A stretch of DNA of 64,000 nt. Source: Petrachloros mirabilis ULC683. GTDB taxonomy: Bacteria > Cyanobacteriota > Cyanobacteriia > Thermosynechococcales > Thermosynechococcaceae. Location of the stretch: positions 72,407 through 136,406 of the forward strand of contig NZ_WVIC01000002.1 of assembly GCF_009939295.1 (NCBI RefSeq). The letters are read 5' to 3'. The position numbers and the translations under genes are program-made. Numbering within the stretch: position 1 is the first letter of the stretch; each line of letters opens with the position of its first letter. Shown here in pieces: positions 572 through 40,049 of the stretch. The notes below the pieces were generated by a model, which had not been told where the DNA came from, searched no databases, and saw only the letters and a program-made list of their open reading frames with translations.

Positions 572-763
572 GTGAGCAAAAAGAAGTGGGGCTGTGTAAG
601 GCCCAGGATCCCGGAGGCGATTTACGAAATAGTTAGGCGTGGGTCTGAGGACGCCAGTCTTCCGGAGAGTTTGTGGTTGGCTGACGCAATTCGTGAGAAG
701 GCGCAAAGGCAGGGGGTGTTGGCAAGCGAGGTAGGAGGTGCTGGCGATGCAGGTGCCTCCTGA
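572..763 (+). CDS. Small ribbon-helix-helix-like regulator (Ner position)
   Basis: About 63 residues, the first rightward gene after the operator. The N-terminal part reads like a ribbon-helix-helix fold: a short basic strand around KWGCVRPRIP, then two helices (AIYEIVRRGSE and ESLWLADAIREKAQ). In Mu this slot holds Ner, a DNA-binding repressor of early transcription, and I infer a similar role although the fold differs. The start is uncertain. GTG at 572 is chosen; TTG at 560 would add four residues and place the start inside the right operator arm. The 3' end overlaps the transposase start by 17 nt, implying one early operon. Confidence 0.6.
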   Translation: MSKKKWGCVRPRIPEAIYEIVRRGSEDASLPESLWLADAIREKAQRQGVLASEVGGAGDAGAS

Positions 764-3059
764 TGGCTGCAAGGAGATCGACGTGAAGAAGTGGTATTTG
801 GCGTCTGAGCTTATTGGGCGTTCGGGAATGCCGCAAACCAAAAAAGGCTTTTTCGCGCTTGCCCGCAGAGGGGGTTGGCACAGCCGAGCGGCGACTGGCC
901 GGGGAGGGACTCGGGAGGAATTTCACATATCCTCGCTACCCCAAGAGACGCAAGAGTATTTGAAAGCACAGTATGGCTTGGAGGCAAAGAATAGTGATTT
1001 CGCCGGAAATGGCAGAGCAGATTTTGATGCTGGAGTTGCGGATGATGTTGCTGATGTTGCTGACCCTGGCGCTGCTCCGGATCTTGGTCTGGCGACTCCG
1101 CTAGCCACCGAGCCGAAGTCTGCCCGCCCAGAAGCCTCTTCTATATATATAGATCTCGGAATTGACGCGCAACACGACGGCACCCCCGTCGAGCAACAGC
1201 AAGACGCATGGCTATACCTGCAATCTATGCAGGAGGTGTGGTGCCAGCGCCAGGGGATCGACAAAATCGTCGATTGCGACTTGGCGTTCGCTGCGGCCTG
1301 GAACGACGGCCAGATCGACGCTCCAGCGTGGATGCAGCAGCAAATCAAGCGGCTTTCGCGCTCAACTCTGGCTCGTAAGCGAGCAAAGCGCCAGAAGGCA
1401 GGAGTCGCAGCCCTCGCTCGCAAGAATGCCAGCAAACGAGCAAAAAAGTTTGACCTGTGCGAGGACATGCAGGCCATCGTCATCGGCATGATTGCCGAAT
1501 ACCCCCATTGCAGCCCCGCACAGGTTTATAAAGCACTCTGCACTCGCCTTGGCCACGACGAAGTGCCCACCCGGCGAACCTTGCAACGCTGGATCGCGCG
1601 CTGGAAAGAAGAGAATGCCGAGCTATTCTTGTCGTTCTCCAACCCAGACGCATGGAAGAGCAACTACATGGTTGCCTTCGGCTCACTCAAAGAAGGCATC
1701 GAGCGACTGTATCAGAAGCTAGAAGCCGACTCTACCCCCGCAGACGTGATGTTGCTAGATGGGCGACATTCCATCGTCGGCATGATCGACATCTACAGCC
1801 AGCAAGCCAAGCTGCTGGTCACCAAAACCAGCAGGGGGACGGCTATTAGCACCCTGCTCCGCCATTGGATTTTGAGCAACGGCGTGCCGGAGACCATCAA
1901 AACCGACAACGGCAAGGACTACACCGGTCACCACTTCCGCCGCTGCCTCAGCGACCTGGGCATCGCCCAGCAAACTTGCAAACCCTTTGCCGCTTGGGAG
2001 AAGGGGCACATCGAGCGGTTTTTCCGCACCTTCGCCCACGACCTCCTTGAGTTACTCGCTGGCTTCATCGGCCACAACGTTGCCGAGCGTCAAGCGATCC
2101 GCAGCCGCCAAAGCTTCGCCGAGCGGCTGTTTGTAAAAGGGGATGTCTTTGCCGTGCGCATGTCCTCTGAAGAGCTGCAAAAGTTCTGCGACCAGTGGAT
2201 CGAGTCGTATATGCACCGCCCCCATGCGGGGCTGGACGGCGAAAAGCCATTTCAAAGGGTTGCCAACTGGCAACACCCGATCCGCAGAGTGGCCGACCCC
2301 AGAGCGCTGGACATGCTGCTAGCCGAGGCTCCCGGCACGGGCCTGCGCACAGTCAACAAAGACGGCGTGCGCCTAGACGGAGCCACCTTTATTGCGCCAG
2401 AGCTGGGAGCTTGGATGCGCCGCCAGGTGCATGTGCGCTACGACCCGACCGACATTGGCCGGATCTATTGCTACGACCCCAGCACCCAGGCTTTCATCTG
2501 CGTCGCCGAGTGCCCCGAGCGCACCGGCATTAGTCGCCAAATGGTGACAGGGCAAGCCAGGCGACGCCAGAGAGAGATCTTGGCCGAGGGGCGCAAGCAG
2601 ATGCAGGTCGCCCGCAAAGAGGCCAGCCTGAGCAACATCGCCCAAGAAATACTCGACGCCGACCTAGCGGAAGCCGCCAAAGTGCGGATGTTCCCACGGC
2701 CAGTCGAAGAGCATACCACCCCGGCGCTGGCGGCAGCCGCAGAAGCCGCCAGCTCGGCAACCCCTGCACTCCCTCGGGTGCGGCAGATGCCGACCCAAGC
2801 CGAAGCAAGACCCAGGCCAGATCGGCCACAGATCAAGGATCTGGATGCGGTACTAGATCGCGTTGTGCGGCAATGGCAGTCTGGAGAGTCGCCGACCCTC
2901 GAAGACGCCACCGACGCGCTGCGCTACTCCGAAATCGGAGCAGGCAAAGGCGCATTGCAGTTTTTGGTAGCCGGAGATGACTGGCAAGAAACCGACAAAA
3001 GCTATCGAGCCGTCCGTGAATGGCTCAAGACCCAACTACGGGCCGCCCAAGCGGGCTAA
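747..3059 (+). CDS. MuA-type DDE transposase
   Basis: A 770-residue transposase that cuts and joins prophage ends during integration and replicative transposition. Domains in order are: an N-terminal Mu-type winged DNA-binding domain (about 8-75, with KWYLASELIGRSGMP and a GW...GRGG...SLP pattern); helical DNA-binding segments; an rve/DDE catalytic core with Asp in MLLDGRHS, Asp in KTDNGKDY and Glu in GHIERFFRTF; then the Mu-transposase C domain with a basic tail. ATG at 747 is preferred over GTG at 738 because GGAGG lies 8 nt before it. It precedes the MuB-like gene by 64 nt. Its expected substrates are the 22-bp repeats at the right end (40250-40293) and matching sites at the unseen left end. 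Confidence 0.96.
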   Translation: MQVPPDGCKEIDVKKWYLASELIGRSGMPQTKKGFFALARRGGWHSRAATGRGGTREEFHISSLPQETQEYLKAQYGLEAKNSDFAGNGRADFDAGVADDVADVADPGAAPDLGLATPLATEPKSARPEASSIYIDLGIDAQHDGTPVEQQQDAWLYLQSMQEVWCQRQGIDKIVDCDLAFAAAWNDGQIDAPAWMQQQIKRLSRSTLARKRAKRQKAGVAALARKNASKRAKKFDLCEDMQAIVIGMIAEYPHCSPAQVYKALCTRLGHDEVPTRRTLQRWIARWKEENAELFLSFSNPDAWKSNYMVAFGSLKEGIERLYQKLEADSTPADVMLLDGRHSIVGMIDIYSQQAKLLVTKTSRGTAISTLLRHWILSNGVPETIKTDNGKDYTGHHFRRCLSDLGIAQQTCKPFAAWEKGHIERFFRTFAHDLLELLAGFIGHNVAERQAIRSRQSFAERLFVKGDVFAVRMSSEELQKFCDQWIESYMHRPHAGLDGEKPFQRVANWQHPIRRVADPRALDMLLAEAPGTGLRTVNKDGVRLDGATFIAPELGAWMRRQVHVRYDPTDIGRIYCYDPSTQAFICVAECPERTGISRQMVTGQARRRQREILAEGRKQMQVARKEASLSNIAQEILDADLAEAAKVRMFPRPVEEHTTPALAAAAEAASSATPALPRVRQMPTQAEARPRPDRPQIKDLDAVLDRVVRQWQSGESPTLEDATDALRYSEIGAGKGALQFLVAGDDWQETDKSYRAVREWLKTQLRAAQAG

Positions 3060-3123: not shown

Positions 3124-3855
3124 ATGCGCAAAAAGAGAGACATCAAAATTGCCAGAACCCGAAGCGTTCAGGGTCTGTTGAAGATCTACCAATCTCTTGA
3201 TGGCCGCAGCCGCCACGTACCAGGCATTGGCCTAGTGCTAGGCGAAGCAGGCATCGGCAAGACAACCGCAGTGACCTGGCTCAGAAACCAGTGCAACTGC
3301 TTGATTATAGAGTGCAACCCCCTGTGGACGCCGCACTCGATGTTGGGCGACATCGCCGCCGAGCTAGGCGAATCAACCGGAGGCGGATCGACCGCATTGC
3401 TCAACAGGCTGGTCGCCAAACTTAGGCTCACGGGCCGCGGCCTGGTGCTCGACGAATGCGACGATCGGCTATTTGCCAGTGGCCGCAAATACCACCAGAT
3501 GATCGACTGCCTGAGGGCATTGCATGACCGCACTGGCGTACCCCTAATTTTCGTCGGCTACCTCCAGGCGCGGCGAACCATCAGCTTGTTCCCGCAGTTG
3601 CAAGGGCGCGTCACTCAAGAGATTGAATTTGAGCGCCTCGACCTCGAGGACACTCAAAAATTCATTGACTGCCTAAGTGACTGCCAGATCGAGTCAGACC
3701 TGCTCGAAGAAATGTTTATCAGCACCCAGGGTCGCCCCCGCCAGACGGTGACTGCCATCGAAAATATCAACGCCCTAGCGAGAGAGCAGCAATGGGAGAG
3801 TGTCAGCGCCGAAAAATGGGGCGCTCAGCCGTTTTTCCCAGGAGATCGCCGATGA
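3124..3855 (+). CDS. MuB-type AAA+ ATPase, target-DNA activator
   Basis: A 243-residue ATPase of the MuB/TniB type. Walker A is GEAGIGKTT (about residues 40-48) and Walker B is LVLDECD (about 111-117). Known role: MuB-type proteins form ATP-dependent filaments on target DNA, stimulate the transposase and give target immunity. The N-terminus is a short basic tail (MRKKRDIKIARTRS); the large N-terminal HTH domain of Mu B is absent, so it is nearer the short MuB proteins of B3/D3112-type phages. Its stop overlaps the next start (ATGA at 3852-3855), showing translational coupling. Tn7-like TnsC was considered, but every other neighbour is phage-like. Confidence 0.92.
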   Translation: MRKKRDIKIARTRSVQGLLKIYQSLDGRSRHVPGIGLVLGEAGIGKTTAVTWLRNQCNCLIIECNPLWTPHSMLGDIAAELGESTGGGSTALLNRLVAKLRLTGRGLVLDECDDRLFASGRKYHQMIDCLRALHDRTGVPLIFVGYLQARRTISLFPQLQGRVTQEIEFERLDLEDTQKFIDCLSDCQIESDLLEEMFISTQGRPRQTVTAIENINALAREQQWESVSAEKWGAQPFFPGDRR

Positions 3856-6193: not shown

Positions 6194-6749
6194 AATTCTA
6201 CTGAAGGGCCAGACTCCAGATTATGCAGTCGGCGTTGCTCAGACTGGCGCAGTCTGGAATGGAGTCCCTCTGCCCTATCGATTTGACGGCGAGGTTGGGC
6301 AGTTTTATTGTGGCAGCGTTGAGGTTGGGGATTCTGTCTGGATCCAGGCGATCCAGTGGCGCTGGGCATCAGGAGAGCGTTGGAGCCGCCCCAACCAGAG
6401 CTGGTTTGACGTGGCCTTTTTGGATTCGGAAAATCTGGTTTCAATTCTTTCGCTCAAAAAGGATTCGGCGGTCAATGTTTTCGAGTTTTTGACTCGGCTC
6501 AGTGCTGACGGCATCCTGGTCGAGGCTGTGCAACTGCGGCTGGGCGCTTGCCAAATCCGACGAGAACCTCGATCTCCTGCTGCCGAATTAAGGGGAATTA
6601 ACCCCTGGGATCTGCCTGACATCCAAGTCTGGCATGTGGTCGACGTGACCGAGGCGCGCTGGATTGGACGTGCCCAATGCGAGGCCGCCCAGGAGTTTAT
6701 GGCTAGCGGCGAATTCGATTGGCGGCTTGTGGGGGAAGTTGATTCGTGA
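6186..6749 (+). CDS. Hypothetical early protein, strand-rich
   Basis: 187 residues. ATG 6186 is chosen because GGAGG (6176-6180) lies 5 nt upstream; an in-frame ATG at 6174 would fall before that ribosome site. The sequence is Trp-rich (WIQAIQWRWASGERW) and strand-rich, with a C-terminal IQVWHVVDVTEARWIG segment. No known family assigned. It sits between the small basic gene and a winged-helix protein in the early operon, ahead of the methyltransferase. Confidence 0.62.
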   Translation: MNKILLKGQTPDYAVGVAQTGAVWNGVPLPYRFDGEVGQFYCGSVEVGDSVWIQAIQWRWASGERWSRPNQSWFDVAFLDSENLVSILSLKKDSAVNVFEFLTRLSADGILVEAVQLRLGACQIRREPRSPAAELRGINPWDLPDIQVWHVVDVTEARWIGRAQCEAAQEFMASGEFDWRLVGEVDS

Positions 6750-7270
6750 TTAAGGCTGAGCAGGTTTTGAGTCTGTTGAGCGATTGTCGAGGTTCCGCCA
6801 ATGGCATTCGCATGTCCGATCTGTGCGAGCTGCTTTGTGGCCGCCAAAATCCTGGCCTGCAGCGGGAGGTGCGAGAGCTAATCACCGTGTTGCGCGAACA
6901 GGGATGGCCAATTTGTAGCCATCCCTCAGTCGGCTACTTCTGGGCCAACTCCCCAGAGGATTTGGAGCAGACCATTGAGTTTTTGCGAGGGCGGGCAATG
7001 ACCTCTCTCCGACAAATCTCGCGGCTGAGGCGGGTAGCGCTGCCGCTCCTGAGTGGGCAGCAAGAGTTGTCGCTGGGTCAGGAGCCGCTAACCCCGGATT
7101 TCGACCCAGATCGTTACAACCGTGAGCCTAAAGTTACCTCTGTTGTCAACATCGCTCCGAACCTGCTCAGTGACCCGGCCAATTTTCTGGAGAAAAATCC
7201 AACCTATGACCAGAATCGGGCGATAGCCGAAGCCCTGGAAACCTTTTTGGAGCTTTTTAACGATGGCTAA
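6746..7270 (+). CDS. Helix-turn-helix early protein
   Basis: 174 residues from GTG 6746 (GTGA overlap with the stop upstream). An N-terminal winged-helix module is visible (about 1-75): VLSLLSDCRGSANGIRMSDL, then LQREVRELITVLREQGWPI and a GYFW wing. It is followed by a helical SPEDLEQTIEFLRGRAMTSL segment typical of phage replication-accessory HTH proteins. The C-terminal 60 residues look disordered. I infer DNA binding; regulator or replication loader cannot be separated from sequence alone. Confidence 0.65.
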   Translation: MIKAEQVLSLLSDCRGSANGIRMSDLCELLCGRQNPGLQREVRELITVLREQGWPICSHPSVGYFWANSPEDLEQTIEFLRGRAMTSLRQISRLRRVALPLLSGQQELSLGQEPLTPDFDPDRYNREPKVTSVVNIAPNLLSDPANFLEKNPTYDQNRAIAEALETFLELFNDG

Positions 7271-8186
7271 CTTAGGCAAACCCTTGACAGAGCTAGAACT
7301 AATTAAGCTCAATGGACATGAGGACACAATTGAGCGCTGTATGCAGTCATACCTGGAATTTGGGTTGGCATTGCGGGCGATCTTGCGCGATCGTCTTTAC
7401 CGCAAGGAGTACAAATCCTTTGAGGAGTATTGCCAGAAGCGCTGGGCGACGAGTCGCCAGGAGGCGTATCGCAAGATCAACGCGGCTGCGGTTGCCCAAA
7501 ATCTAATGTCGGCCAGCAATGTTCAGCCTGTTGAATATCAAACCCGACTGTTGTCTCAGCTGGAACCCGCCCAGCAGCGGATTGTTTGGAAGGCGGCGCT
7601 AGAAGAGTCGAAGGGCCACCCCACCGGCAGAATCATTGAGCAAGTCATGGTGAAGCGGGGACTGCGCTCTAAGCCGCAGGCTGCCGAGCACTCGAGTGAA
7701 AGCGAGGAGTGGTACACCCCTTCGCACGTATTGGAGCGAGTTCTAGCCTGCCTGGGAAGCGTCGACCTCGATCCTGCCGCCGAAACTCTGGAGAACCCCA
7801 ACGTGCCCGCCAATGCTCACTACACAGCCGAGCTTGATGGCTTGAGTGACAGGGTTTGGGCGGGCAAGATTTACCTGAACCCTCCCTACGGGCGTTCAAT
7901 CGGTCGTTGGGTGGAGCGCTTGCTCTGGGAGTATGTGAGCGAAAACGTCACTGAGGCGATTTTGCTGGTGCCTGCCCGAACCGATACTGAGTGGTGGAAG
8001 CAGCTCCAGCATTTCCCTGTTTGCCTCTGCTGGGGCCGCCTAAGATTCTCAGGCTCTAAAACTGGTGCGCCCTTCCCGAGTGCAATTTTCTATCTAGGGA
8101 AGTCAGCCGACGCTTTTTACGACGCTTTTGCTGATCTTGGCGGCATCTGGATGCGAATCTCCAGGGATTCGCTGGCCGATGGTTAA
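7263..8186 (+). CDS. Phage Dam-type DNA N6-adenine methyltransferase with helical N-domain
   Basis: 307 residues in two parts. Residues 1-130 are helical and resemble the DNA-binding N-terminal region found before some phage methylases (FEEYCQKRWATSRQEAYRKI). The C-terminal part (about 140-300) matches the phage Dam family: EEWYTPSHVLERVL, then VDLDPAAE, and motif IV as LNPPYGRSIGRW, the NPPY adenine-MTase signature. It should transfer methyl from SAM to adenine N6, likely protecting phage DNA from host restriction or timing transposition. No cognate nuclease is nearby, so it appears to be an orphan. The start overlaps the previous gene by 8 nt. Confidence 0.88.
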   Translation: MANLGKPLTELELIKLNGHEDTIERCMQSYLEFGLALRAILRDRLYRKEYKSFEEYCQKRWATSRQEAYRKINAAAVAQNLMSASNVQPVEYQTRLLSQLEPAQQRIVWKAALEESKGHPTGRIIEQVMVKRGLRSKPQAAEHSSESEEWYTPSHVLERVLACLGSVDLDPAAETLENPNVPANAHYTAELDGLSDRVWAGKIYLNPPYGRSIGRWVERLLWEYVSENVTEAILLVPARTDTEWWKQLQHFPVCLCWGRLRFSGSKTGAPFPSAIFYLGKSADAFYDAFADLGGIWMRISRDSLADG

Positions 8187-8430
8187 ATTCTTTTCGCGAA
8201 CCCTAAAGGATTTGGCCCGGTTGGTCTATCTGGACCAGGGCGGTTCAGTTACCCACCAGATCCTGCCCGAGGTCGAGATGGAGCCCTTTGAGTATGGTTT
8301 GGAGTCTCGGGTTGGCGCTTGCGCCAACTGCAAGTTTTTTTCTGGCGATGATTTCTTTTTGGCCTGTGCGGTTCACCCCTGCGGCTCGCCAGAACCCACC
8401 TGTCCCGATTACGAGAAGCACGATGCCTGA
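8179..8430 (+). CDS. Cys-box miniprotein 1
   Basis: 83 residues from ATG 8179, overlapping the methylase stop by 8 nt. An upstream in-frame ATG at 8128 is rejected because it lies inside the methylase. The C-terminal half has a Cys cluster: C-x2-CKF, then CAVHPCG, then C-x-DYE. The spacing suggests a small zinc-binding knuckle. The same box appears in the gene at 9952-10131, so the prophage encodes two relatives within 2 kb. The function is unknown; protein or nucleic-acid binding is possible. Confidence 0.68.
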   Translation: MVKFFSRTLKDLARLVYLDQGGSVTHQILPEVEMEPFEYGLESRVGACANCKFFSGDDFFLACAVHPCGSPEPTCPDYEKHDA

Positions 8431-8863
8431 GTATATCCACCCCACTGTGCGCCTGGAAGCTCGAATGCGGAAGGAGTTTCCGTGGCGAAACGATCAAAAT
8501 GTTTTCCGAATTTTCTGCGTCTGGTTAGGCAACCAGAACAAACGAGCATTGGAGTCTGGTATGTCGCCGTATCGAGCTGGACTAGGCTACGTCATTAACT
8601 GCGAAAAGACGTACGACGACATTGAGAAGCTGGACGCGGCATGGGAGGAATTTAAGGCTTTAGAGACCGAACGCGAAGCCAAGGCCAGAGAATTGGCCGC
8701 TAGTAGACCCGAGCTGCCTTCGCTGGCTCCACAGCGAACAGACGAGCGTGAAATTCGCTTGGGGACGCTGCGGAATATGTGCTCTTCTGGTCGCGCGGAA
8801 ATGGCAGCGGCTTGGATCGACGAACATCCTGAATGGGGAATCAGCCTGGAGGAGGTCTTATGA
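8423..8863 (+). CDS. Hypothetical early protein
   Basis: 146 residues starting at ATG 8423 (MPEYIHPTVRL), overlapping the previous gene by 8 nt; the longer in-frame reading from 8288 is rejected. It is almost wholly helical, with a long charged helix about residues 60-95 (KLDAAWEEFKALETEREAKA) and a second helical unit near the C-terminus (RAEMAAAWIDEHPEWGISLEE). No family recognised. It lies directly upstream of and coupled to the NblA homologue (4-nt overlap), so the two are made together. Confidence 0.62.
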   Translation: MPEYIHPTVRLEARMRKEFPWRNDQNVFRIFCVWLGNQNKRALESGMSPYRAGLGYVINCEKTYDDIEKLDAAWEEFKALETEREAKARELAASRPELPSLAPQRTDEREIRLGTLRNMCSSGRAEMAAAWIDEHPEWGISLEEVL

Positions 8864-9030
8864 AACCAACCCTTGAGCAGCAGTTTGAAATTGAGGCTTA
8901 TAAACAACGAATTAAAAACTTAGATCGGGAGCAGTGCCAGCTCGCCCTAGTCAGTCTATACGCGCTAATGCTGGAGCGTGATAACCACTACAAGGCGCTT
9001 TTGCGCGAAAAATGGGGGATTGGGCAATGA
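8860..9030 (+). CDS. nblA: NblA-family phycobilisome degradation protein
   Basis: 56 residues from ATG 8860 with GGAGG 5 nt upstream. It has the usual NblA length (50-65) and pattern: an acidic N-terminus LEQQFEIEAYKQRI, a KNLDREQ turn, then LYALMLERDNHYKALLREKW, matching the LEQxF...DN-x-Y-x-x-LL...W layout of cyanobacterial NblA/Ycf18. Known role: NblA binds phycobiliprotein and directs Clp proteolysis, dismantling the antenna. Known also: some lytic freshwater cyanophages carry nblA. Here it sits in the early operon of a transposable prophage, between a hypothetical gene and GemA, with 4-nt overlaps both sides. Inference: it frees amino acids or limits light stress on induction. Confidence 0.82.
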   Translation: MKPTLEQQFEIEAYKQRIKNLDREQCQLALVSLYALMLERDNHYKALLREKWGIGQ

Positions 9031-9485
9031 CTAGCAAAAATCAACTCCCTGCCAGCGAACGACGGCGCATCTTGGCGCAAATCCACATCGCCCGCAAGCA
9101 GCTCAATATGGACGAAGACGTTTATCGAGACAAGCTCGAAGAGTTGACTGGCAAGCGGAGTGCCGGGGTTCTGGATGTCCAGGGCCTCAAAAAAACGCTC
9201 GACTGGTTTTATTCGGTCGGCTTTCGCCCTACGGGTGGGAGCCTCAGTCCAGTATCTCGTCAGAAGCGCTGCAAAACGCGAGCCGACAAGCTGGTGGCGC
9301 TGTGGATTGAGTTGCACAAGGCGGGAAAGGTGCGAGACAGATCCCACCAGGCGCTGCAAGCCTTTGTTAAGCGACAGATCGGGGGCAAGTTGACCTTGAT
9401 GCCTGGGGCCGACCCCATCAAGGCGGCTACGCCTCAGCAGTTGGCAGATTGCATTCACGCGCTTGAGGTGTGGTTAGATGCCTGA
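9027..9485 (+). CDS. gemA: GemA/gp16-like protein (DUF1018)
   Basis: 152 residues. The start at ATG 9027 overlaps the nblA stop (ATGA). It carries the DUF1018 pattern: IHIARKQLNMDEDVYRDKLE, followed by SAGVLDVQGLKKTLDWF and a basic linker, then a C-terminal helical unit (ALQAFVKRQIGGK). In Mu, GemA (gp16) alters host gene expression and DNA topology and lies just before mor; the same order is kept here. It overlaps the next gene by 8 nt. Confidence 0.88.
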   Translation: MTSKNQLPASERRRILAQIHIARKQLNMDEDVYRDKLEELTGKRSAGVLDVQGLKKTLDWFYSVGFRPTGGSLSPVSRQKRCKTRADKLVALWIELHKAGKVRDRSHQALQAFVKRQIGGKLTLMPGADPIKAATPQQLADCIHALEVWLDA

Positions 9486-9948
9486 TTTGGTTCAAGCCCG
9501 CAAAACCCTAAAGGCGCGGATGCAGATCCTTGGAATTAACGCCGAGCACAGGTGTGTAAAACGATTCCTGGAGCGCTGCGGCATCTCAAATCTGCGGAGC
9601 GCCAGAGCCGAAGACTTACTGGAGCTAGAGCGACAGCTAGGTGGCCTGCTGGACGGCAAGAAGGACTTGTCAGACGACATTGCTGCAGTGGAAGCGCAGC
9701 TTTGTCGCCTTGGTTACGCCAAGCGAGACCTGGCCGTTTTGCTGCTGTGCCGCTCCTACGGGTATGAGCGCTGGGAGGCACTTGATCGAGAGGGGCTGCT
9801 CGCGATTTCCAAGGAGCTGTCTCGCTGTGCCTCAAACGTAGCCAGACTGCAGGTGCTGATCTTGGAGCTGCTGACACTGATTTCAACCTTAGTGCCCGAG
9901 GAGCAAGTCCAAGAGATCACAAAAAAACTAGACATTGGCCGATTCTGA
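9478..9948 (+). CDS. Hypothetical helical early protein
   Basis: 156 residues, all helical. Residues 1-50 resemble a compact helix bundle (QARKTLKARMQILGINAEH); the centre has an acidic coiled-coil-like helix (EDLLELERQLGGLLDGKKDL) and the C-terminal part a second long helix (LQVLILELLTLISTLVPEEQ). No family assigned. It lies between gemA and the Mor-like activator, so a regulatory or replication role is plausible but unproven. Confidence 0.62.
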   Translation: MPDLVQARKTLKARMQILGINAEHRCVKRFLERCGISNLRSARAEDLLELERQLGGLLDGKKDLSDDIAAVEAQLCRLGYAKRDLAVLLLCRSYGYERWEALDREGLLAISKELSRCASNVARLQVLILELLTLISTLVPEEQVQEITKKLDIGRF

Positions 9949-9951
9949 AAG

Positions 9952-10131
9952 ATGGATCCCAAAAGCTGCATCAATTGCCGATTTTGCGAAGTTAGATTCA
10001 AGCCCCTGTGCGCGGTCAACCCCGGATGGCTTGAGGCGAATTTCATCCGGGAACTAGCGACGCCGCTCCCCCGAAAACCCCGACTACTCTCGTACCCAGC
10101 CTGCGAAAATTGGGAAGACTGCCATGTATAA
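9952..10131 (+). CDS. Cys-box miniprotein 2 (59 residues)
   Basis: A 59-residue reading frame from ATG 9952 to TAA at 10129-10131, three bases after the previous stop and overlapping the next start by 8 nt, the same overlap style as its neighbours. It has SCINCRFCEV, then LCAVNPGW, and ends YPACENWEDCHV. This matches the box in the protein at 8179: C-x2-C-[KR]-F...CAV-[HN]-P...C-x-[ND]-[YW]-E. Such Cys spacing suggests one bound zinc. The function is unknown. Confidence 0.6.
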   Translation: MDPKSCINCRFCEVRFKPLCAVNPGWLEANFIRELATPLPRKPRLLSYPACENWEDCHV

Positions 10132-10645
10132 AGCAAAAGATTTCGAGAACATAGCCCAGGCAATCGGACGCGACCAGACCCAGCGCCTCATCGATGAAAA
10201 TAGGGGCAAGTGGTGGATCTACATACCCAAGGCCCCAACCCCGCGCATCGTCGAGATAATTGGACTGCGCGCCTCTCAGAAGCTGTGTGAGCTATACGGC
10301 GGCGATCGACTTCGAGTCCCGAGTTCCGCCAAGTCGGACGCGCAGAAAAATGCCGAGATTTGTCGTGCCGTGATGCGAGGCGAACCCGCCGTCTCGGTCT
10401 GCTGTCGATTTGGACTCAGGGGAGATAGGCTCTTAAGCATTTTGCGCGCCAACATTGGAGAAGCCGAATTCGAGACTTTGCGATCTGAGATTGAAACCTG
10501 CATTGGATACAACGGACTCGCCGCTCGCCACGAGCAAATTCAAAAGCGTCTAGCGGCAGGTGAAACCATCACCTCCGTGGCTCGCAGCTTTGGACTGAAC
10601 CCCACATGGGTTCTGGAGATTGGCAAAAGATCGGCAAAGGCTTAG
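10124..10645 (+). CDS. Mor/C-family middle-late transcription activator
   Basis: 173 residues. The N-terminal region (about 10-60) matches the Mor dimerisation domain, including GKWWIYIPK and LYGGDRLRVP. The C-terminal part holds two HTH-like units rather than one: NAEICRAVMRGEPAVSVCCR...LLSIL and EQIQKRLAAGETITSVARSF...WVLEI, each with a GE-x-x-x-SV-x-x-x-FGL core. Known role: Mor and C in Mu activate middle and late promoters with host RNA polymerase. Its place after GemA and before the lysis/head genes fits. The doubled HTH is unusual for the family. Confidence 0.78.
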   Translation: MYKAKDFENIAQAIGRDQTQRLIDENRGKWWIYIPKAPTPRIVEIIGLRASQKLCELYGGDRLRVPSSAKSDAQKNAEICRAVMRGEPAVSVCCRFGLRGDRLLSILRANIGEAEFETLRSEIETCIGYNGLAARHEQIQKRLAAGETITSVARSFGLNPTWVLEIGKRSAKA

Positions 10646-10700: not shown

Positions 10701-11069
10701 ATGCGTGAAACTCTGATCGGGATGGGGATAGCTGGAGCGGCAGTCGGCGCGGCAGCGCTCTACTTTTGGAAGATAAGAAGGTTGCCTCCGGCAGAAGCCC
10801 TTGAAAGAGCCATCCAGATGGCCTGTCAGATCTGGGTCGCCAGCGACTTTGCGACCCCACGATCGCTCATAGACCCTTCGGCAAATCGCAAGTTAATCCG
10901 AGAAGCGGGGCTAATCTTGAAGGCAGAACTGATGGGGCGATCGACCTACGCATCGCGGCTCCCAGAAGTCATCGCCAAAATCCACCCAGAATTTGCTGGA
11001 GTTGACCCAACCGATCTGGCGCTGGGCGTAAAAGAGCAGATCATCAGAGGAAGCCATGTTGAAGCTTGA
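10701..11069 (+). CDS. Single-pass membrane protein, lysis cassette
   Basis: 122 residues. An N-terminal membrane helix (residues about 5-24, LIGMGIAGAAVGAAALYFW) is followed by KIRR, predicting a cytoplasmic C-terminal domain of about 95 residues (N-out/C-in). The soluble part is helical. It overlaps the endolysin gene by 14 nt. A holin or pinholin function is possible by position, but a single helix with a large soluble domain is not typical of holins, so I leave the function open. Confidence 0.55.
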   Translation: MRETLIGMGIAGAAVGAAALYFWKIRRLPPAEALERAIQMACQIWVASDFATPRSLIDPSANRKLIREAGLILKAELMGRSTYASRLPEVIAKIHPEFAGVDPTDLALGVKEQIIRGSHVEA

Positions 11070-12444
11070 AATCCTTCAACCTACCTTCGCCAAGCAATCT
11101 ACGGCACAAAGCACCCAGCTACTTGATCACGAAAAATACTTCCTGGCGGATGGTGAGTTTGCGGTGCATTCGTGGCAGGTGGTACGCGATCACCTGCGAG
11201 TGGCACTGGCCGAAGCCGTGCTGGATGGCCGGAATACCTGGTATTTTTACGCCCCACACTGCCGACTGGTAGGTCTAAATGGCCAGCCGCTTGCGGGCGC
11301 GGGTCAGCCGCCGACGGAGAGCAACCTGCCAGACGGATTCAAGGTGCCGGAGCGGCAGTTGAGCTGGCCTAACTACCCTGTAGCTCAGACGCGACTGGGG
11401 CAAATCACCTTCACGGGCGGGTTCATGGAACCGCATGGTCATTCTTGGAAGGATGTAACTCGTGCCATTTTTGCGGATGGCGTATTGCGGCAGCTCCCGC
11501 CGAGCAATCGCAACCTCGGGATTGATTACTGCGTAGGTGACAAAAAAATCCGCGCTTGGTATGGCGGCACCGTAACTAAAGTCGGACTTGAAGGGGGATA
11601 CGGACACAGATGCCACATCCACACAAACCTAACCTATCGCCACCAGGGGCAGGATTACCCGCTTTGGACGGCCTATGCTCATGCCCAAAGCTTTAACGTT
11701 CGGGTTAACGACAAGATCTTGCCAGGGCAAGAGATTGGAGTAGAGGGCGGCACAGGCCGGCTTGGTCGCAATGATTATCCTGATCATGTTGACTTCCGCA
11801 CCTGGATTCATGTTGGTGGGCAGAGTGTAGACGTTAGTCCCAATGCGATCGAAGCTCAGCTACGAGCAGATGCCCCAGCGCCAGACTCGGCCCCAGCGAA
11901 AACTGCTCGCTCCGAGTCTGAAATCCTGGAGCTAGCACTGGCGTTTACCCTCCACTGGGAGGGGGGCGCTGTGGACCATGTGGATGATTTGGGGGGAAGA
12001 ACCAATCGAGGGATTACCCAGGGAACCTACGATCGCTGGCGCGATCAACAGGGACTGCATCGCCAGGATGTATGGCTAGTCTCTGAAGCCGAGGCTACAC
12101 GAATCTATCGAGAACAATACTGGGTTCTAGGGAACCTCCCCCAGCGCGCACATCCTGCCTTTGAAATTGTCCATTTTGACACCTGCGTAATGCACGGCAT
12201 AGTGGGGGGTACGATTTTTCTGCAGGAATTGTTTAATCTGAAGATGGACGGCATCCTTGGTCCCCAGACCGAGGCGGCTGTTTTGCGAGGCAATGGGATG
12301 GATTCGGCGCTGAGATACTGCAAAAACAGAGAGGCATACCGACATCAACGAGTGCGTGAAAACCCCAGCCAGCAGGTTTTCTTGCAAGGGTGGCTTAATC
12401 GAGACCAGGACTTGGCTCGTTACATTCAGGAGGTAGTTGCTTGA
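11056..12444 (+). CDS. Two-domain endolysin: degenerate M23-like domain plus GH108
   Basis: 462 residues. The N-terminal half contains an M23/LytM-like fold (about residues 150-270): GIDYCVGDKKIRAWYGGTVT, then AYAHA, VRVNDKILPGQEIGVEGGTG and DHVDFRTWI. The classical zinc ligands HxxxD and HxH appear as NLGID and HVD, so two of three ligands look lost. The C-terminal half (about 285-460) is a glycoside hydrolase family 108 lysozyme: TLHWEGGAVDHVDDLGGRTN with the catalytic Glu in EGG, then a peptidoglycan-binding region. It should cut host peptidoglycan at lysis. There is no signal peptide, so export would need a holin. Confidence 0.85.
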   Translation: MLKLEILQPTFAKQSTAQSTQLLDHEKYFLADGEFAVHSWQVVRDHLRVALAEAVLDGRNTWYFYAPHCRLVGLNGQPLAGAGQPPTESNLPDGFKVPERQLSWPNYPVAQTRLGQITFTGGFMEPHGHSWKDVTRAIFADGVLRQLPPSNRNLGIDYCVGDKKIRAWYGGTVTKVGLEGGYGHRCHIHTNLTYRHQGQDYPLWTAYAHAQSFNVRVNDKILPGQEIGVEGGTGRLGRNDYPDHVDFRTWIHVGGQSVDVSPNAIEAQLRADAPAPDSAPAKTARSESEILELALAFTLHWEGGAVDHVDDLGGRTNRGITQGTYDRWRDQQGLHRQDVWLVSEAEATRIYREQYWVLGNLPQRAHPAFEIVHFDTCVMHGIVGGTIFLQELFNLKMDGILGPQTEAAVLRGNGMDSALRYCKNREAYRHQRVRENPSQQVFLQGWLNRDQDLARYIQEVVA

Positions 12445-13117: not shown

Positions 13118-13651
13118 GTGGGACGTAAATCCAAGATTTTTACAGCCTTGAGCGAAACCCGCCGAGACGAGCTAAACCAGCGGTTGATTGTCAGCGGTTT
13201 CACTAACTACGACGAACTGGAATTGTGGTTGCGAGGGCTGGGCCATGATATTTCAAAAAGCTCGATCCACCGCTACGCGCAACGCTACGAGGACGCAATT
13301 GCTGCGGCATCTGTTACCGCGCAGCAATTGCGTAGCTTAGTTGAAGCTGTGGGGGACGATGCGCTGTCACTTGGAGAGGGAGCGTATATGCTCGCGATCA
13401 ACAAGGCGGTTGAAGTGTTGTTGAGCCTGAATCTGGAGGAGCAAAAAATCTCTTTGACTCAGCTCCTCAAAAATATTGCTGACCTCAACAAATCTGCTGT
13501 ACCCCTGAAGAAATACGCAACCGAGACCAGGGAACGACTGGCCGCCAAATTTGCTGCGTTGGAAAAAGAGGCTGAGACCAAAACGAGTAAACGAACAATC
13601 GACCCAGAGACGCTCCGGATCATCCGTGAGGAGGTTTATGGCCTCGTCTAG
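13118..13651 (+). CDS. Small terminase subunit, Mu gp27 type (DUF3486)
   Basis: 177 residues from GTG 13118. It has an N-terminal HTH region with basic MGRKSKIF, RRDELNQRLIVSGFTNYDEL and the family-typical ISKSSIHRYAQRYE, then a long helical oligomerisation region and a basic tail. Known role: DUF3486 proteins act with gp28 to recognise phage ends for headful packaging in Mu-type phages. It overlaps the large terminase gene by 14 nt. Confidence 0.88.
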   Translation: MGRKSKIFTALSETRRDELNQRLIVSGFTNYDELELWLRGLGHDISKSSIHRYAQRYEDAIAAASVTAQQLRSLVEAVGDDALSLGEGAYMLAINKAVEVLLSLNLEEQKISLTQLLKNIADLNKSAVPLKKYATETRERLAAKFAALEKEAETKTSKRTIDPETLRIIREEVYGLV

Positions 13652-14957
13652 CGCCTTGACGCTGTATGACTATCAGTGCCGATGGCTGGCTGATCGCAGC
13701 CGATTTAAGATCGCCATGTTCGCCCGACAAACCGGGAAAACATTTGCCACAACTCTGGAGATTGTTGACGACTGCTTTGAGGTAGAGAGCCAGGGTCGCC
13801 GCACTCGGTGGGTCATCCTGTCTCGGGGCGAGCGACAGGCCAGAGAAGCGATGCAGGAGGGCGTCAGGCTCCACTTGCAGGCGTATCAGATGGCGGCAGA
13901 CGTAATCGAGAGCGAGTTCGTGGGTGAGTCGGGGCAGGCTTTTAAGCAGCTTGAGGCTCGCTTGCCTGGGGGCAGCCGCATTATCGCCCTGCCAGCCAAC
14001 CCAGACACGGCACGGGGTTATTCAGGCAACGTCTTCCTAGACGAATTTGCGATCCACAAAAACAGCCGCGCCATTTGGGGGGCGCTGTTCCCGGTGGTGA
14101 GTGCTGGTTACAAGGTGAGAATCACCTCCACGCCCAAGGGCAAGGCCAACAAATTCTACGAATTGTGGTCTCTAGATGACCCGCTGTGGCACAAGCACCG
14201 TATTGACATCCATCAGGCAGTGCGAGAAGGGCTGCCCAGGGACGTCGAAGAGCTGCGACGGGGTCTCAATGACCCCGACCTCTGGGCGCAAGAATACCTG
14301 TGCCAATTCGTCGACGAGGCCAGTGCATGGCTCAGCTACGACTTGATCAACAGTTGCGAGTCGCCAGAAGCTGGAGACCCAGACCGATACCAGGGAGGGG
14401 ATGTTTATATCGGCAACGATATTGCGCGCCGCAACGATCTCTGGGTCGCCTGGGTGTTGGAGCGAGTTGGGGATGTATTGTGGACTCGCGAGATTGTGAC
14501 CTTGCGGCGGGCCACATTCGCTGAGCAGGATGCGACAATGGATGCGCTTTTTGAGCGCTATCGGGTGCGCCGATTGGCGATGGATCAGACCGGGATGGGC
14601 GAAAAGCCGACTGAGGATGCACAGCGGCGATACGGGATGCACCGAGTTGAGGGGATACTGTTCACGGCGGCGAATAAGCAAACCCTGGCTCAGATTGGTA
14701 AGCAGGGATTTGAAGATCGCAAATTGCGCGTGCCGGCTGGCGACCTGGAGCTAAGGCAAGACCTGCACAAACTCCGCAAGATTGTCACCCCAACCGGCGG
14801 GGTGCGTTTTGACGCGGACACCGACGCTCTGGGGCACGCCGACCGAGCCTGGGCGTGCTTCCTGGCACAATATGCTGTGACCAACACCTTTAGCCCCATC
14901 GACTACACCCCGATTACGCCCAGCCCAGACCCCGTGCTGAAGGGCTTTTGCGCTTAG
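13638..14957 (+). CDS. Large terminase subunit (TerL), Mu gp28 type
   Basis: 439 residues. ATG 13638 is chosen because GAGGAG precedes it; an in-frame reading back to 13551 lies inside the small subunit. The ATPase motor has Walker A-like FARQTGKT and Walker B VFLDEFA. The C-terminal RNase H-type nuclease has acidic residues in YIGNDIARRND, RLAMDQTGMG and DALGHADRAW. It pumps DNA into the procapsid and cuts it. It is followed after a 38-bp gap by the portal gene. Confidence 0.93.
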   Translation: MASSSALTLYDYQCRWLADRSRFKIAMFARQTGKTFATTLEIVDDCFEVESQGRRTRWVILSRGERQAREAMQEGVRLHLQAYQMAADVIESEFVGESGQAFKQLEARLPGGSRIIALPANPDTARGYSGNVFLDEFAIHKNSRAIWGALFPVVSAGYKVRITSTPKGKANKFYELWSLDDPLWHKHRIDIHQAVREGLPRDVEELRRGLNDPDLWAQEYLCQFVDEASAWLSYDLINSCESPEAGDPDRYQGGDVYIGNDIARRNDLWVAWVLERVGDVLWTREIVTLRRATFAEQDATMDALFERYRVRRLAMDQTGMGEKPTEDAQRRYGMHRVEGILFTAANKQTLAQIGKQGFEDRKLRVPAGDLELRQDLHKLRKIVTPTGGVRFDADTDALGHADRAWACFLAQYAVTNTFSPIDYTPITPSPDPVLKGFCA

Positions 14958-14995
14958 CCTTGGCCTTCGGCTGGCGTGTCTGGCAAAAATACATC

Positions 14996-16495
14996 ATGAC
15001 AAACGCCAACCCCAAACCCAACTGGACAGAACTCGCCACAATCCAAGATGGGCGAGATATTACTCGTGGCTACTTGGGGCCCCTGCTGACCTATCAGGAC
15101 AAGATCCTGCAAATGCGGGGCGGGGGCGATCTCGAAATATACGAAGAAATCCTGCGAGACGACATGGCTCGCGCGGCACAGCGGCAGCGGCGAGAGGGGA
15201 TGCTCGCATGGCCCTGGGAGGTGCGCCCAGGGCGGCGACGATTCCAGGAAGAGACCGAAGCCGATCGCCGAGCGGCAGACTTGGTGCGCGAGATGCTCGA
15301 TGGCATCCCCACCGACTCGATTTTTGGCAAAATGCACTACGGCTTCTGGTACGGCTATGCGATCGCCGAGACTCTTTTTGCCACGGACGACCGCTGGGTT
15401 GTGTGGGACGATTCGCGCGGCGGCCTGAAGGTAAAGAAAGCCAAGCGGTTTAGGTTTGACTCCCAGGGCCAACTGAGGCTGCTGACCTACGGCAAAATGC
15501 ACTACGGCGAGGCTTTGCCGCCCGAGAAATTCTGGCATTTTTGCTACGGGGCCGATAACGATGACGATCCCTATGGCCTTGGTGACGCACACTTTTGTTA
15601 TTGGCCGGTCACAATCAAGCGCCAGGGTCTGACGGCGTGGCTCACATTCTTGAGGCGATTTGCCCTGGGATTCCCCTTGGGCAAATATCCGGCTGGGACG
15701 CCACCGGAGGAGCAAGCGAAGCTCAAGCGGGTGGTCGAAGGGCTGGCCAGCGATGCCGGGGGCATAATCCCAGAAGGTATGGCCATTGATCTGCTGGAAG
15801 CAAGGCGCTCGGGCAATGCTGAGTTTAGTGTCCTTGACGAAAAATGCGACGACGCGATCGCCCGCATCATTCTCGGCGAGACAATGACCATTGACGCAGA
15901 AGGCGGCCAATACAAAGGCGAGACCCATCTGTCGATTCAGCAACAGATGATCTTGGCCGACTCTGATGCGCTGTGCGCTTCATTTAGTCGCGGCCCAGTG
16001 CGGCAACTCATTGAATACAATCGCGCCCGGTTGGGCGATGCCGCCATCCCCTCAGTCTGGCGAGTGCCACCTAGGCAAGATGACCTCAAGCTGACATCCG
16101 AGATCTACGCCAACCTATACGAGATTGGCTTTGAGCCTAAAGAGGTCAGCCAAATTGAAGAGCGATTTGGCGGCCAGTGGCAGCGCAAAGCCACCCCCCC
16201 AGAAGTTCCAGGAGCATTGCTCGACACAGAGTTCGCTGAAACCGACCCAATCGAGGATCAGGAGTCCATCGACACATTCTTGGACGAATTAAGCGATCAG
16301 GAGCTAGCTGCTGAAATGGAAGCGCTGCTGGAACCTCTAGTTAATTTCTTGCAATCTGGCGACGGCGAGGGGGCGATGGAGCGACTAGCGGAGCTGTACC
16401 CAATGCTTGACTCCGCAGCCCTAGAAGAGCGGCTGGCGCGAGCGTTTTTTCTGGCTGAGGTTATTGGGCGAATTGGCGCTCAGGAGGAAGTTTGA
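14996..16495 (+). CDS. Portal protein, DUF935 (Mu gp29 type)
   Basis: 499 residues from ATG 14996; an upstream in-frame ATG (14948) overlaps terL and has no ribosome site. Family features include DITRGYLGPLLTYQDKIL, LEIYEEILRDD, WPWEVRPG, and the long stem and crown segments. It should form the dodecameric DNA channel at one capsid vertex and dock TerL. The acidic C-terminus (EDQESIDTFLDELSDQELAAE) is typical of the family. Head genes follow directly. Confidence 0.93.
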   Translation: MTNANPKPNWTELATIQDGRDITRGYLGPLLTYQDKILQMRGGGDLEIYEEILRDDMARAAQRQRREGMLAWPWEVRPGRRRFQEETEADRRAADLVREMLDGIPTDSIFGKMHYGFWYGYAIAETLFATDDRWVVWDDSRGGLKVKKAKRFRFDSQGQLRLLTYGKMHYGEALPPEKFWHFCYGADNDDDPYGLGDAHFCYWPVTIKRQGLTAWLTFLRRFALGFPLGKYPAGTPPEEQAKLKRVVEGLASDAGGIIPEGMAIDLLEARRSGNAEFSVLDEKCDDAIARIILGETMTIDAEGGQYKGETHLSIQQQMILADSDALCASFSRGPVRQLIEYNRARLGDAAIPSVWRVPPRQDDLKLTSEIYANLYEIGFEPKEVSQIEERFGGQWQRKATPPEVPGALLDTEFAETDPIEDQESIDTFLDELSDQELAAEMEALLEPLVNFLQSGDGEGAMERLAELYPMLDSAALEERLARAFFLAEVIGRIGAQEEV

Positions 16496-16587
16496 TGGCA
16501 TCTGCAAACCTGATTTATGTGCTTGAGGGGGAGAACATAGTCCCCGTGACGCTCACAACCTTGGATTTTCGCTCCCAAAGTAACTAA
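16495..16587 (+). CDS. Thirty-residue reading frame ahead of the MuF-like gene
   Basis: ATG 16495 overlaps the portal stop and has AGGAGG 7 nt upstream, better than the site of the next gene. It encodes 30 residues (MASANLIYVLEGENIVPVTL...) ending in TAA, which overlaps the next ATG (TAATG at 16585-16589). It may be a coupling leader that delivers ribosomes to the MuF-like gene, or the remnant of a longer gene. The product itself is unrecognised. Confidence 0.42.
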   Translation: MASANLIYVLEGENIVPVTLTTLDFRSQSN

Positions 16588-17402
16588 TGGCTATAGCACC
16601 CCTGAAATTTTTGATCAGCCTGCCCCCGCGCTTGGCGATCGCCTGGTTCCGCCGCAAGGGCCACCAGATCACCTGGGACTGGGAGGAAATGCTCGAAGAA
16701 TCCCACAACAGGGCCTTCACGGTGGCCAAGGCCGCCAAGCTCGACATCCTGCAGTCGATCCGCGACGCATTCACCCAGGCTCTAGAGGAAGGCCAAACTG
16801 AGCGATCCTTCCGCCAAAATCTAGAGCCAATCTTAAAGCAGAAAGGCTGGTGGGGCCGCCAGACCGTCGAAGGGCCAGACGGCGAAGAGGAGGTGCAGCT
16901 AGGAAGCCCATATAGATTGAGGACTATTTATCGCACTAACTTGCAAACAGCCATGATGGCGGGGCGACATGCCGAGCTGGCCGAAAATGTAGACGATCGG
17001 CCTTACTGGCAATACGTAGCAGTGCTTGACGCCAGGACGCGGCCCACTCACCGTCAACTGGACGGGTTGATTTTTCGCCACGACGATCCATTCTGGAATA
17101 GCTTTTACCCTCCCAACGGCTTCAATTGCCGTTGCAGAATTCGGGCGCTGTCTCAGCGAGACATTGACCGCAGGGGACTGGTCGTAGGATCCTCTGAGGG
17201 GCTATTAACCCAGGACACAGCCCTGCTGAGCCAACGGTCTGGCCTCACAGTACCTACCGCTGTTTATCGGGGCGCGGAGGGGGCAGTGAGGCCCGATCCG
17301 GGCTGGAGCTATAGCGTCGCACAGGGTCAGCAAGAGCCGGATCTACGCCGCCTCGACCCCGACCTGGCGCAACAGTATCGAGAGGATGAAGGCGATGGCT
17401 GA
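16587..17402 (+). CDS. Head morphogenesis protein, MuF/SPP1 gp7 family
   Basis: 271 residues. Family markers are YRTNLQTAMMAGRHAEL, YVAVLDARTRPTHRQLDG, a PFWNSFYPPNGFNCRC core with conserved Cys, and RALSQRDIDRRG. Known role: minor capsid/head assembly protein associated with the portal. No toxin or enzyme domain is fused at the C-terminus, unlike some MuF proteins. The start is coupled to the 30-residue frame upstream; its own ribosome site is weak. Confidence 0.92.
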   Translation: MAIAPLKFLISLPPRLAIAWFRRKGHQITWDWEEMLEESHNRAFTVAKAAKLDILQSIRDAFTQALEEGQTERSFRQNLEPILKQKGWWGRQTVEGPDGEEEVQLGSPYRLRTIYRTNLQTAMMAGRHAELAENVDDRPYWQYVAVLDARTRPTHRQLDGLIFRHDDPFWNSFYPPNGFNCRCRIRALSQRDIDRRGLVVGSSEGLLTQDTALLSQRSGLTVPTAVYRGAEGAVRPDPGWSYSVAQGQQEPDLRRLDPDLAQQYREDEGDG

Positions 17403-17946
17403 AATCGAAATCCAGATTGAAGTAGAAGACATCAGTCAAGCATTGGCCGAGATTGCTCGGCGACTGGAGGATCTAACACCTGCATTCAGGCGGATCAAGG
17501 GCGTAATGCTGGACGCCGCAGAGGAGAACTTCGCCCAGCAAGGCCGGCCTCGGTGGGTCGATCTAGCCCCTGCGACCAAGAAGCAGCGAGCCAAGCAAGG
17601 ATCTTGGCCTGGATCAATCCTGCAGCGAACCGGTGGACTCGCGGCTAGCATCGTGGGCGACTCTGGCCGCGACTATGCCACAGTCGGCACCAACAAGGAG
17701 TATGCGGCAATTCATCAATTCGGCGGAGAAATCCGCCAGTTTGCCCAAGCTCGCTTCGTTGACTTCAGAATTGATCGTCAAGGCCGCAGTCGCTTTGCTA
17801 AGCGCCGAGACGCCAATTTTTCTCAAGCGGTCACCTTTCAAGCCAGAACGATTCCCATCCCAGCTCGCCCCTTCCTCAGCTTCACTGAGGGCGACCAGGA
17901 AGAAATGCTGGCCTGCTTTGCAGGCTTTCTGTCCGAGAACCTTTAG
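17395..17946 (+). CDS. Virion morphogenesis protein, Mu gpG type
   Basis: 183 residues. The pattern includes LTPAFRRIKGVMLDAAEENF, WVDLAPATKKQRAKQG, LQRTGGLAASI, YATVGTNKEYAAIHQFGGEI and a terminal IPARPFLSF, as in the phage virion morphogenesis (tail completion) family. ATG 17395 or 17386 could start it; the first fits the family N-terminus. Known role: completes head-to-tail joining. It overlaps the MuF-like gene by 8 nt. Confidence 0.9.
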   Translation: MAEIEIQIEVEDISQALAEIARRLEDLTPAFRRIKGVMLDAAEENFAQQGRPRWVDLAPATKKQRAKQGSWPGSILQRTGGLAASIVGDSGRDYATVGTNKEYAAIHQFGGEIRQFAQARFVDFRIDRQGRSRFAKRRDANFSQAVTFQARTIPIPARPFLSFTEGDQEEMLACFAGFLSENL

Positions 17947-17963
17947 CCTTACAAAAAGCGTCT

Positions 17964-17986
17964 AATTCACTGATTCTGGGTGAATT
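17964..17986 (+). repeat. Inverted repeat between gpG-like gene and protease
   Basis: A perfect 7-bp stem AATTCAC/GTGAATT with a 9-nt loop lies in the 55-bp gap before the protease gene. It has no U-run, so it is more likely a processing or binding element than a terminator. The role is unknown. Confidence 0.35.
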
Positions 17987-18001
17987 GCTTCGGAATTCTG
18001 G

Positions 18002-19246
18002 ATGCCAAAAAACAAGCTGCGGTGGGTTGAGATCTTCCGGTCGGGCACGCATGTAGATCGCCACGGTCGGCAGAGGGACTACCCCGTAGAAGACCTACAG
18101 GACGCCGCCCGCAGCTACGAACCGAGAGTTTACAAGGCTCCTTTGATAGTCGAGCACAAAACCAAAGGCATCCCCGACCCAGAAATCCACCGCCAGCCCT
18201 GGGCATTTGGCTGGCCCAGCCAGCTAAAGGTTGAAGGCGAAAAACTCAAAGCTGGATTTGAGCGCATTGCCCCTGAATTTTTGGAGTGGGTAAAAAACGG
18301 GAACCTGCTGGCAATCAGCAGCAGCTTTTACTTGCCGGACGATTTGCGCAATCCAACGCCAGGGCGAATGCACCTGCGGCATGTGGGGGCACTAGGCGAG
18401 CACCCGCCCTCAGTCAAAGGGCTGGCTGGACTCGATGAGCTTTTGGAGTTTCAGGAGTTCTCAGAAGGTGAGGCAACCTATGAGATTCCGGCAAAAGCAG
18501 ATGCTTTTGCTGAGTTCAGCGAACTTGGTGGAACGGACGTCAGGCTGCTGATTGAGGATCTGGTTCGATCTGCTGCCGACGAAATCTTGCGCCAGCAAAA
18601 CAACGAGGAACTTATGGAAGATCTACGCAAATTAGCAGAGACAGCAATTCGGGCTGTAATCAGCCTGGACGAAACGATTCACACGCGCTTAGCAAAAGCG
18701 CTAGAAGTCCCCCCTCACGAATTTGCCGAGTCTCTGTCAGACCTCAAGCTTGAGTCAGATGAGATCGCCAAGCTTACTGGGGCGCTGACGCCAGAGTTTA
18801 GCGAACCCCACCCCAGGGAGGCAGAAATTGCCGCGAAGGAAGCGGAGATTAGCAAGCGGGAGGCCAAGCTGCGCCGCCAGGGGATCGTTGATTTCCTGGA
18901 GCCGTTGCAACGGGACGGCAAGTTGCTGCCAGGGCATAAGGAAGGGCTGATCGAAGTTTTGGACTGCCTAGAGCCACTCGCGGCGGTGGAGTTCTCAGAA
19001 GGTCAACCCGCAAAGCCGCCAGCTCAAATTTTGCGTGAATTTATCTCAGGTCTCCCGCCGCAGATTGACTACAGCGAACGGGCTGCCGGAGAGGACGAGG
19101 GTGATGCCGCTCCAGAGTTTGCCGAAGCGCCTGGGTATAGCGTCGATCCAGATCAAAAGAAGCTCTGGCAAAAGGCGAGAGCCTACCAGAAGGCCAATCC
19201 GAACATAGAACTAGTTGATGCCTACAAGGCAGTGGGAGGCAAGTAA
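18002..19246 (+). CDS. Mu I-type head maturation protease with scaffold
   Basis: 414 residues. The N-terminal protease region (about 1-150) has YKAPLIVEHKTKG and LLAISSSFYLPDD, the His and Ser-containing motifs of the Mu I-like serine protease family, and HLRHVGALGEHPP. The middle and C-terminal region is charged coiled coil (about 270-320, EAEIAAKEAEISKREAKLR), expected of a scaffold. In Mu the scaffold Z is encoded inside gene I. Known role: directs procapsid assembly and then degrades the scaffold. It ends in TAATG, coupling the next gene. Confidence 0.9.
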   Translation: MPKNKLRWVEIFRSGTHVDRHGRQRDYPVEDLQDAARSYEPRVYKAPLIVEHKTKGIPDPEIHRQPWAFGWPSQLKVEGEKLKAGFERIAPEFLEWVKNGNLLAISSSFYLPDDLRNPTPGRMHLRHVGALGEHPPSVKGLAGLDELLEFQEFSEGEATYEIPAKADAFAEFSELGGTDVRLLIEDLVRSAADEILRQQNNEELMEDLRKLAETAIRAVISLDETIHTRLAKALEVPPHEFAESLSDLKLESDEIAKLTGALTPEFSEPHPREAEIAAKEAEISKREAKLRRQGIVDFLEPLQRDGKLLPGHKEGLIEVLDCLEPLAAVEFSEGQPAKPPAQILREFISGLPPQIDYSERAAGEDEGDAAPEFAEAPGYSVDPDQKKLWQKARAYQKANPNIELVDAYKAVGGK

Positions 19247-19614: not shown

Positions 19615-19629
19615 GGAGTTTTAGATTAG

Positions 19630-27212: not shown

Positions 27213-27239
27213 TTAGATTTCCTCAAAATTAAAACCAGG
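27184..27239. repeat. 17-bp direct repeat across a gene boundary
   Basis: TCAAAAATAAAACCAGG (27184-27200) recurs with one change at 27223-27239, 39 bp apart. One copy encodes PGFIFED at the start of the 26208 gene, the other PGFNFEE at the end of the 27213 gene. It looks like a scar of duplication or domain splitting at the gene junction. Confidence 0.6.
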
Positions 27240-40017: not shown

Positions 40018-40049
40018 AATTCGACCAAATCGCTTAAGGTTTCCTTAAT

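Follow-up and report, generated by a model that had tools for sequence, protein, structure and literature searches.

The window, by which is meant the whole stretch of 64,000 nucleotides of Petrachloros mirabilis ULC683 that was analysed, contains at positions 8860-9030 of the forward strand a small gene, nblA, whose product is, by its sequence, a genuine member of the NblA family (PF04485). The reading frame extends from an ATG at 8860 to a TGA stop at 9028-9030 and encodes a protein of 56 residues, MKPTLEQQFEIEAYKQRIKNLDREQCQLALVSLYALMLERDNHYKALLREKWGIGQ. This protein covers 47 of the 50 positions of the Pfam model with 53.8 bits (E=2.7e-14), the curated cut-off being 25 bits, and scores 53.9 bits when its own genome is searched with the same model; phmmer matches it to the solved NblA of Anabaena (1ojh) with E=1e-7, and NblA is the only clear family match that was obtained. 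The AlphaFold2 model, built from a six-sequence alignment, consists of two helices (H5-19 and H23-52; mean pLDDT 92.5, pTM 0.61) arranged in the helix-loop-helix fold described for NblA (PMC7966870), and the protein has both the length (about 55-65 residues) and the long second helix expected of the family. The preliminary description of this DNA had recognised NblA from the length and the residue pattern of the product: all of the motifs it quoted are present, and the HMM search and the structure prediction it proposed as checks both point to an NblA of the two-helix type. A Foldseek comparison of the model with the PDB gave no significant match and did not list any NblA, two-helix chains of 56 residues scoring poorly in such comparisons.

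The N-terminal (S/T)(L/M)EQ motif, which has been linked to ClpC binding, occurs as TLEQQF at residues 4-9. The phycobiliprotein-binding residues of the Anabaena protein are Leu51 and Lys53; in the alignment with 1ojh the leucine is kept as Leu47, and an arginine, Arg49, stands in place of the lysine. With the narrow NCBIfam equivalog NF045916 the protein scores 22.9 bits, below the cut-off of 100 bits, but six NblA-type proteins of hosts used as controls also fall below it (14-34 bits), so that the window protein lies outside this narrow model only.

The gene is preceded by a Shine-Dalgarno sequence (GGAGGAGG) and its spacer (8846-8859) and is tightly packed between its neighbours. Its start shares the four bases ATGA (8860-8863) with the stop of an upstream early ORF (8423-8863, forward strand) devoid of any recognised family, and its stop shares another ATGA (9027-9030) with the start of gemA, a Mu gp16-like gene (9027-9485, forward strand; PF06252, 82.7 bits; phrog_286). 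A further early ORF (9478-9948, forward strand) is conserved in other elements, downstream of nblA in a second prophage of the same genome and downstream of gemA in a prophage of genome G120. All genes of the block running from MuA to Mor lie on a single strand, with a largest gap of at most 64 bp and overlaps mostly of 4 or 8 bp; the surroundings of nblA yielded no promoter-like site, and stems resembling terminators (one of them at 8310-8335) are in no excess over shuffled sequences. The ribosome site, the overlaps on both sides and the position of nblA in the early block, here an unbroken operon, are thus as previously described. Another early ORF (6746-7270), with a weak DUF2811 match of 20.9 bits, below the cut-off, recurs in the majority of the Mu-like elements of cyanobacteria that were looked at.

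The surrounding element is a prophage of the Mu type. At its left lies a divergent helix-turn-helix protein on the reverse strand (7-438), likely a c-type repressor, with a weak HTH_3 match (22.8 bits, the cut-off being 23) and homologues that adjoin MuA in other elements. The forward strand then encodes a MuA-like transposase (738-3059; PF09299, PF02316; phrog_310, 318.7 bits), a MuB-like transposition ATPase (3124-3855; phrog_296, 116.4 bits), a Dam-type adenine methyltransferase (7263-8186; PF05869, 43.4 bits), a Mor-like late activator that closes the early block (10124-10645; recognised by PHROG only, phrog_836, 65.7 bits, and below the Pfam cut-off), a lysin composed of M23, GH108 and peptidoglycan-binding domains (11056-12444), and packaging and head genes identified by family matches (13551-20619; TerL, Mu portal, MuF and later head genes). 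The order MuA, MuB, Dam methylase, GemA, Mor, lysin, TerL, Mu portal, MuF, Mu Gp36 thus includes the features by which Mu-like phages are recognised, namely a DDE transposase with Mu domains and its MuB partner, together with GemA, Mor, the Mu portal and MuF. Near the right end, an ORF of 2987 residues (31024-39987), searched in three pieces, yielded no significant Pfam family, and a divergent block on the minus strand (26208-31024) is likewise devoid of families.

Both ends of the element, which is intact, have been located. The left end, 5'-TGTAAAGCGACA, corresponds to scaffold position C4:71045, 1362 bases ahead of the window, and the right end (...TGTCGCGTTACA) lies at 40289-40300 of the forward strand, followed by GCGCT at 40301-40305. 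The ends have the form 5'-TGTAA...TTACA-3' (TG...CA) and make up an imperfect inverted repeat that contains repeats of the GAGATCCCA type; GCGCT flanks both of them as a 5-bp target duplication, as expected for Mu. The preliminary description had spoken of a transposable prophage, which agrees with this gene set, these ends and this duplication. The length amounts to 41,662 bp, counting a 100-N scaffold gap that lies shortly before the window. When the flanks are joined and GCGCT is kept once, an ORF of 374 residues with Phage_integrase and arm-binding domains is restored, and the tyrosine integrase gene interrupted in this way (window 40300-40700 and C4:71045) lies close to a tRNA-Val gene (40540-40612); the prophage therefore inserted into an integrase gene that belonged to an older element near tRNA-Val, and is either nested inside that integrative element or has inactivated it. 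Several GAGATCCCAAATT repeats in both orientations occur at the right end (40009-40290) and also at the left end, and are likely candidates for transposase-binding sites. Tandem copies of a 15-bp sequence, GGAAACACTTTCAGA, were also seen beside the 100-N gap in the left part of the prophage (scaffold C4; L213, 19663-19900).

Four NblA genes occur in the genome: two of the host type (C74 and C49), the window copy, and a copy at C25:36347 that adjoins a second gemA. The latter belongs to a separate Mu-like prophage, whose proteins share 34% (MuA), 37% (MuB), 41% (GemA) and 67% (TerL) identity with those of the window element. The two prophage NblAs are 62-65% identical, second only to TerL among the genes compared, and their C-terminal half is the best conserved part (74%, versus 62% overall). 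Upstream of the second nblA, a homologue (34% identity) of the early ORF that precedes the window gene is also found.

A search for gemA that covered two overlapping sets of about 390 genomes each, one from the class and the other from a single order, together with smaller orders, gave 11 cyanobacterial elements over the family cut-off. An NblA-type gene lies within 1.5 kb of gemA in five of them (the window prophage, the C25 prophage, one in G120 and two in G088), which span three genera, the host's own and two others, and in each of the four operons inspected in detail nblA and the gene upstream of it overlap. Under random placement, five of 11 would have a probability below 1e-9 by a rough binomial estimate that ignores shared ancestry. 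Linkage of nblA to gemA recurs among the Mu-like prophages of cyanobacteria. The remaining six elements are devoid of an NblA-type gene, and nblA is therefore dispensable for the Mu-like life cycle. No NblA was found in a contrast set of about 150 other Mu-like loci obtained with TerL as bait, the named ones nearly all proteobacterial or non-cyanobacterial, except for a single match, IMG/VR L128, whose protein is identical to a G088 prophage protein. Single-sequence queries gave no matches, either with MuA in the species-genome collection or with the window NblA in viral contigs.

The two NblA-type genes of the G088 prophages score about 20 bits, under the Pfam cut-off, and their products are 63-67% identical to chromosomal NblA-like proteins of G088, whose genes sit among housekeeping genes and one of which exceeds the cut-off (27.7 bits). 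Over the C-terminal half, the identity to these host proteins reaches 70-75%. All NblA-like proteins of G088, whether encoded on its chromosome or in its Mu-like prophages (L036, 8768-8965; L037, 8983-9186; L038, 10087-10251; L039, 10036-10221), are of this divergent kind (LEKQFAH...LGQQALF) and most of them score under the Pfam cut-off; they possibly represent an overlooked NblA subfamily. Around other divergent NblAs of related genomes (L241-L252) no Mu-like neighbours were found, save a marginal G protein match in L243. NblA-like candidates in Mu-like elements of G175 and G171 were weak, were unsupported by Pfam, and were rejected; the small ORF of the G175 element (L041, 2627-2944) lies between MuF and the portal and displays a weak NblA-like pattern (SLERE...) with no Pfam support.

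As to its origin, the window NblA shares only 28-31% identity with the NblAs that the host itself encodes. In the NblA tree, which rests on about 60 columns so that only its strongest branches are meaningful, the window and C25 proteins form their own branch on a long stem (100/99 support), apart from the host copies, while the G088 prophage proteins cluster with the type of their own host and the G120 protein stands apart. The idea of a recent duplicate of a host nblA was dropped, being contradicted by both the identity and the tree. These comparisons indicate that nblA was acquired beside gemA on two or more separate occasions, from at least two NblA lineages. Between the window and C25 genes, dN is 0.24 and synonymous change is saturated, and the G088 pair has a dN/dS of about 0.08; judging from such substitutions, the prophage nblA sequences are under purifying selection.

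The window gene probably codes for a working NblA, a proteolysis adaptor used as an early gene product by a temperate, transposing phage of the Mu type. NblA is an adaptor that links phycobiliproteins to ClpC (PMC7966870, PMC7760959), and the host, with 13 matches to the phycobilisome domain PF00502, has phycobilisomes by this measure. In the lysogen, the early operon would be silent, kept off by the divergent repressor; upon induction, or in a fresh infection, a transcript running from MuA to Mor would allow NblA to be made alongside the transposition proteins and hence, as an early gene product, it should act ahead of the head genes. The protein would dimerise, bind phycobiliproteins by its C-terminal helix and ClpC by its N-terminal motif, and deliver the antenna to ClpCP, from which the phage might gain amino acids and a reduced photodamage during replicative transposition. 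Since Mu-like prophages of at least two other genera carry nblA in the same position, phages of this kind probably break down the antenna when they are induced. Binding to the antenna of this particular host is not guaranteed, because of the low identity to the host NblAs.

Other readings of the gene have to be weighed against this one. A fortuitous likeness between NblA and a short helical phage protein is extremely improbable: short two-helix proteins can yield weak HMM matches, and Foldseek did not return NblA, but 53.8 bits over 47 of 50 model positions (E=2.7e-14), the independent match to a solved NblA and the lack of any other clear family match all argue for true kinship. It is somewhat less far-fetched, though still unlikely, that nblA is a passenger (a moron) which brings no benefit to the phage or which serves mainly the lysogen, for instance as an extra copy tuning antenna size in starvation. 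The six related elements that manage without nblA and the two copies already owned by the host fit such a passenger, whereas the position of the gene within a compact early operon, where it overlaps both neighbours and no promoter-like sequence was found close to it, its repeated link to gemA in three genera and the purifying selection speak against it.

Mu needs ClpX to remodel MuA, and ClpXP to degrade its repressor. An NblA-derived Clp adaptor could have been retargeted to a phage substrate such as the repressor or transposase, and favour the lytic switch instead of antenna breakdown. In favour of this reading, which has a low probability, NblA is a ClpC adaptor (PMC7966870) and its gene occupies a conserved position here among those for transposition. 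The phycobiliprotein-binding C-terminal half is the part best conserved between the two prophages of this genome and, in G088, it follows the host's own type, so that the antenna is favoured as the target over a phage protein. Of equally low probability is a broader scheme, in which a standing cyanobacterial Mu-like lineage keeps an NblA-type adaptor beside gemA to couple its lysis-lysogeny switch to ClpC proteolysis, delivering antenna as well as phage proteins (repressor or transposase) and linking the nutrient state of the host to transposition.

Phage-encoded antenna breakdown has so far been described mainly for lytic cyanophages. Here nblA lies within the early operon of phages that transpose and form lysogens in several genera of cyanobacteria, and two or more NblA lineages occupy this position. 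If the gene is active, prophage induction would bleach the host ahead of the structural gene products, which offers a testable link among lysogeny, light harvesting and nitrogen recycling, and the prophage variants provide a compact set for dissecting the residues that choose the antenna target.

With respect to known systems, searches of the open-access literature found no report of a Mu-like prophage that carries nblA. In PMC9239245, reference 54 is cited for a marine lineage with lysogenic potential beside phage nblA, and the presence of nblA in non-lytic phages generally may therefore be known. The preliminary description had placed phage nblA in lytic freshwater cyanophages; it is indeed known there, but in marine ones as well (PMC9602691). 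In Ma-LMM01, nblA is an early gene overlapping nrdA, expressed from 1 h and twenty-fold above the host nblA (PMC4103541). Activity has been demonstrated for some phage NblAs, whose expression in Synechocystis or S. elongatus leads to a loss of phycobilin (PMC9602691). The lytic cyanophages (Ma-LMM01, MaMV-DC, PaV-LD and marine cyanophages) share with the window prophage a small early gene of the NblA family, but are unrelated to Mu, whereas the window nblA belongs to a transposable prophage and is coupled to gemA. Only Microcystis-type phages match the window NblA among known phage records, and the Ma-LMM01-type protein is 32% identical to it, with E-values of 0.1 or worse. Four IMG/VR contigs (L044-L047) also carry nblA, and no Mu-like neighbours of it were seen there; in L044-L046 a ribonucleotide-reductase-like gene, noticed by eye, lies near nblA, an arrangement as in Ma-LMM01.

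Host NblAs (1ojh of Anabaena PCC 7120, C74 and C49) resemble the window protein in predicted fold, LEQ motif and length, but the host's two copies differ from it in sequence and leave the prophage pair on its own branch. Mu and Mu-like phages share with the window prophage MuA, MuB, GemA, Mor, the Mu portal, MuF, the 5-bp duplication and the TG/CA ends, but the proteobacterial relatives that were scanned are devoid of NblA. Finally, the prophage of S. elongatus PCC 7942 (Synpcc7942_0759/0760) is likewise a resident prophage acting on photosystem pigments; its effect is independent of nblA, and its authors propose a parallel strategy (PMC9239245).
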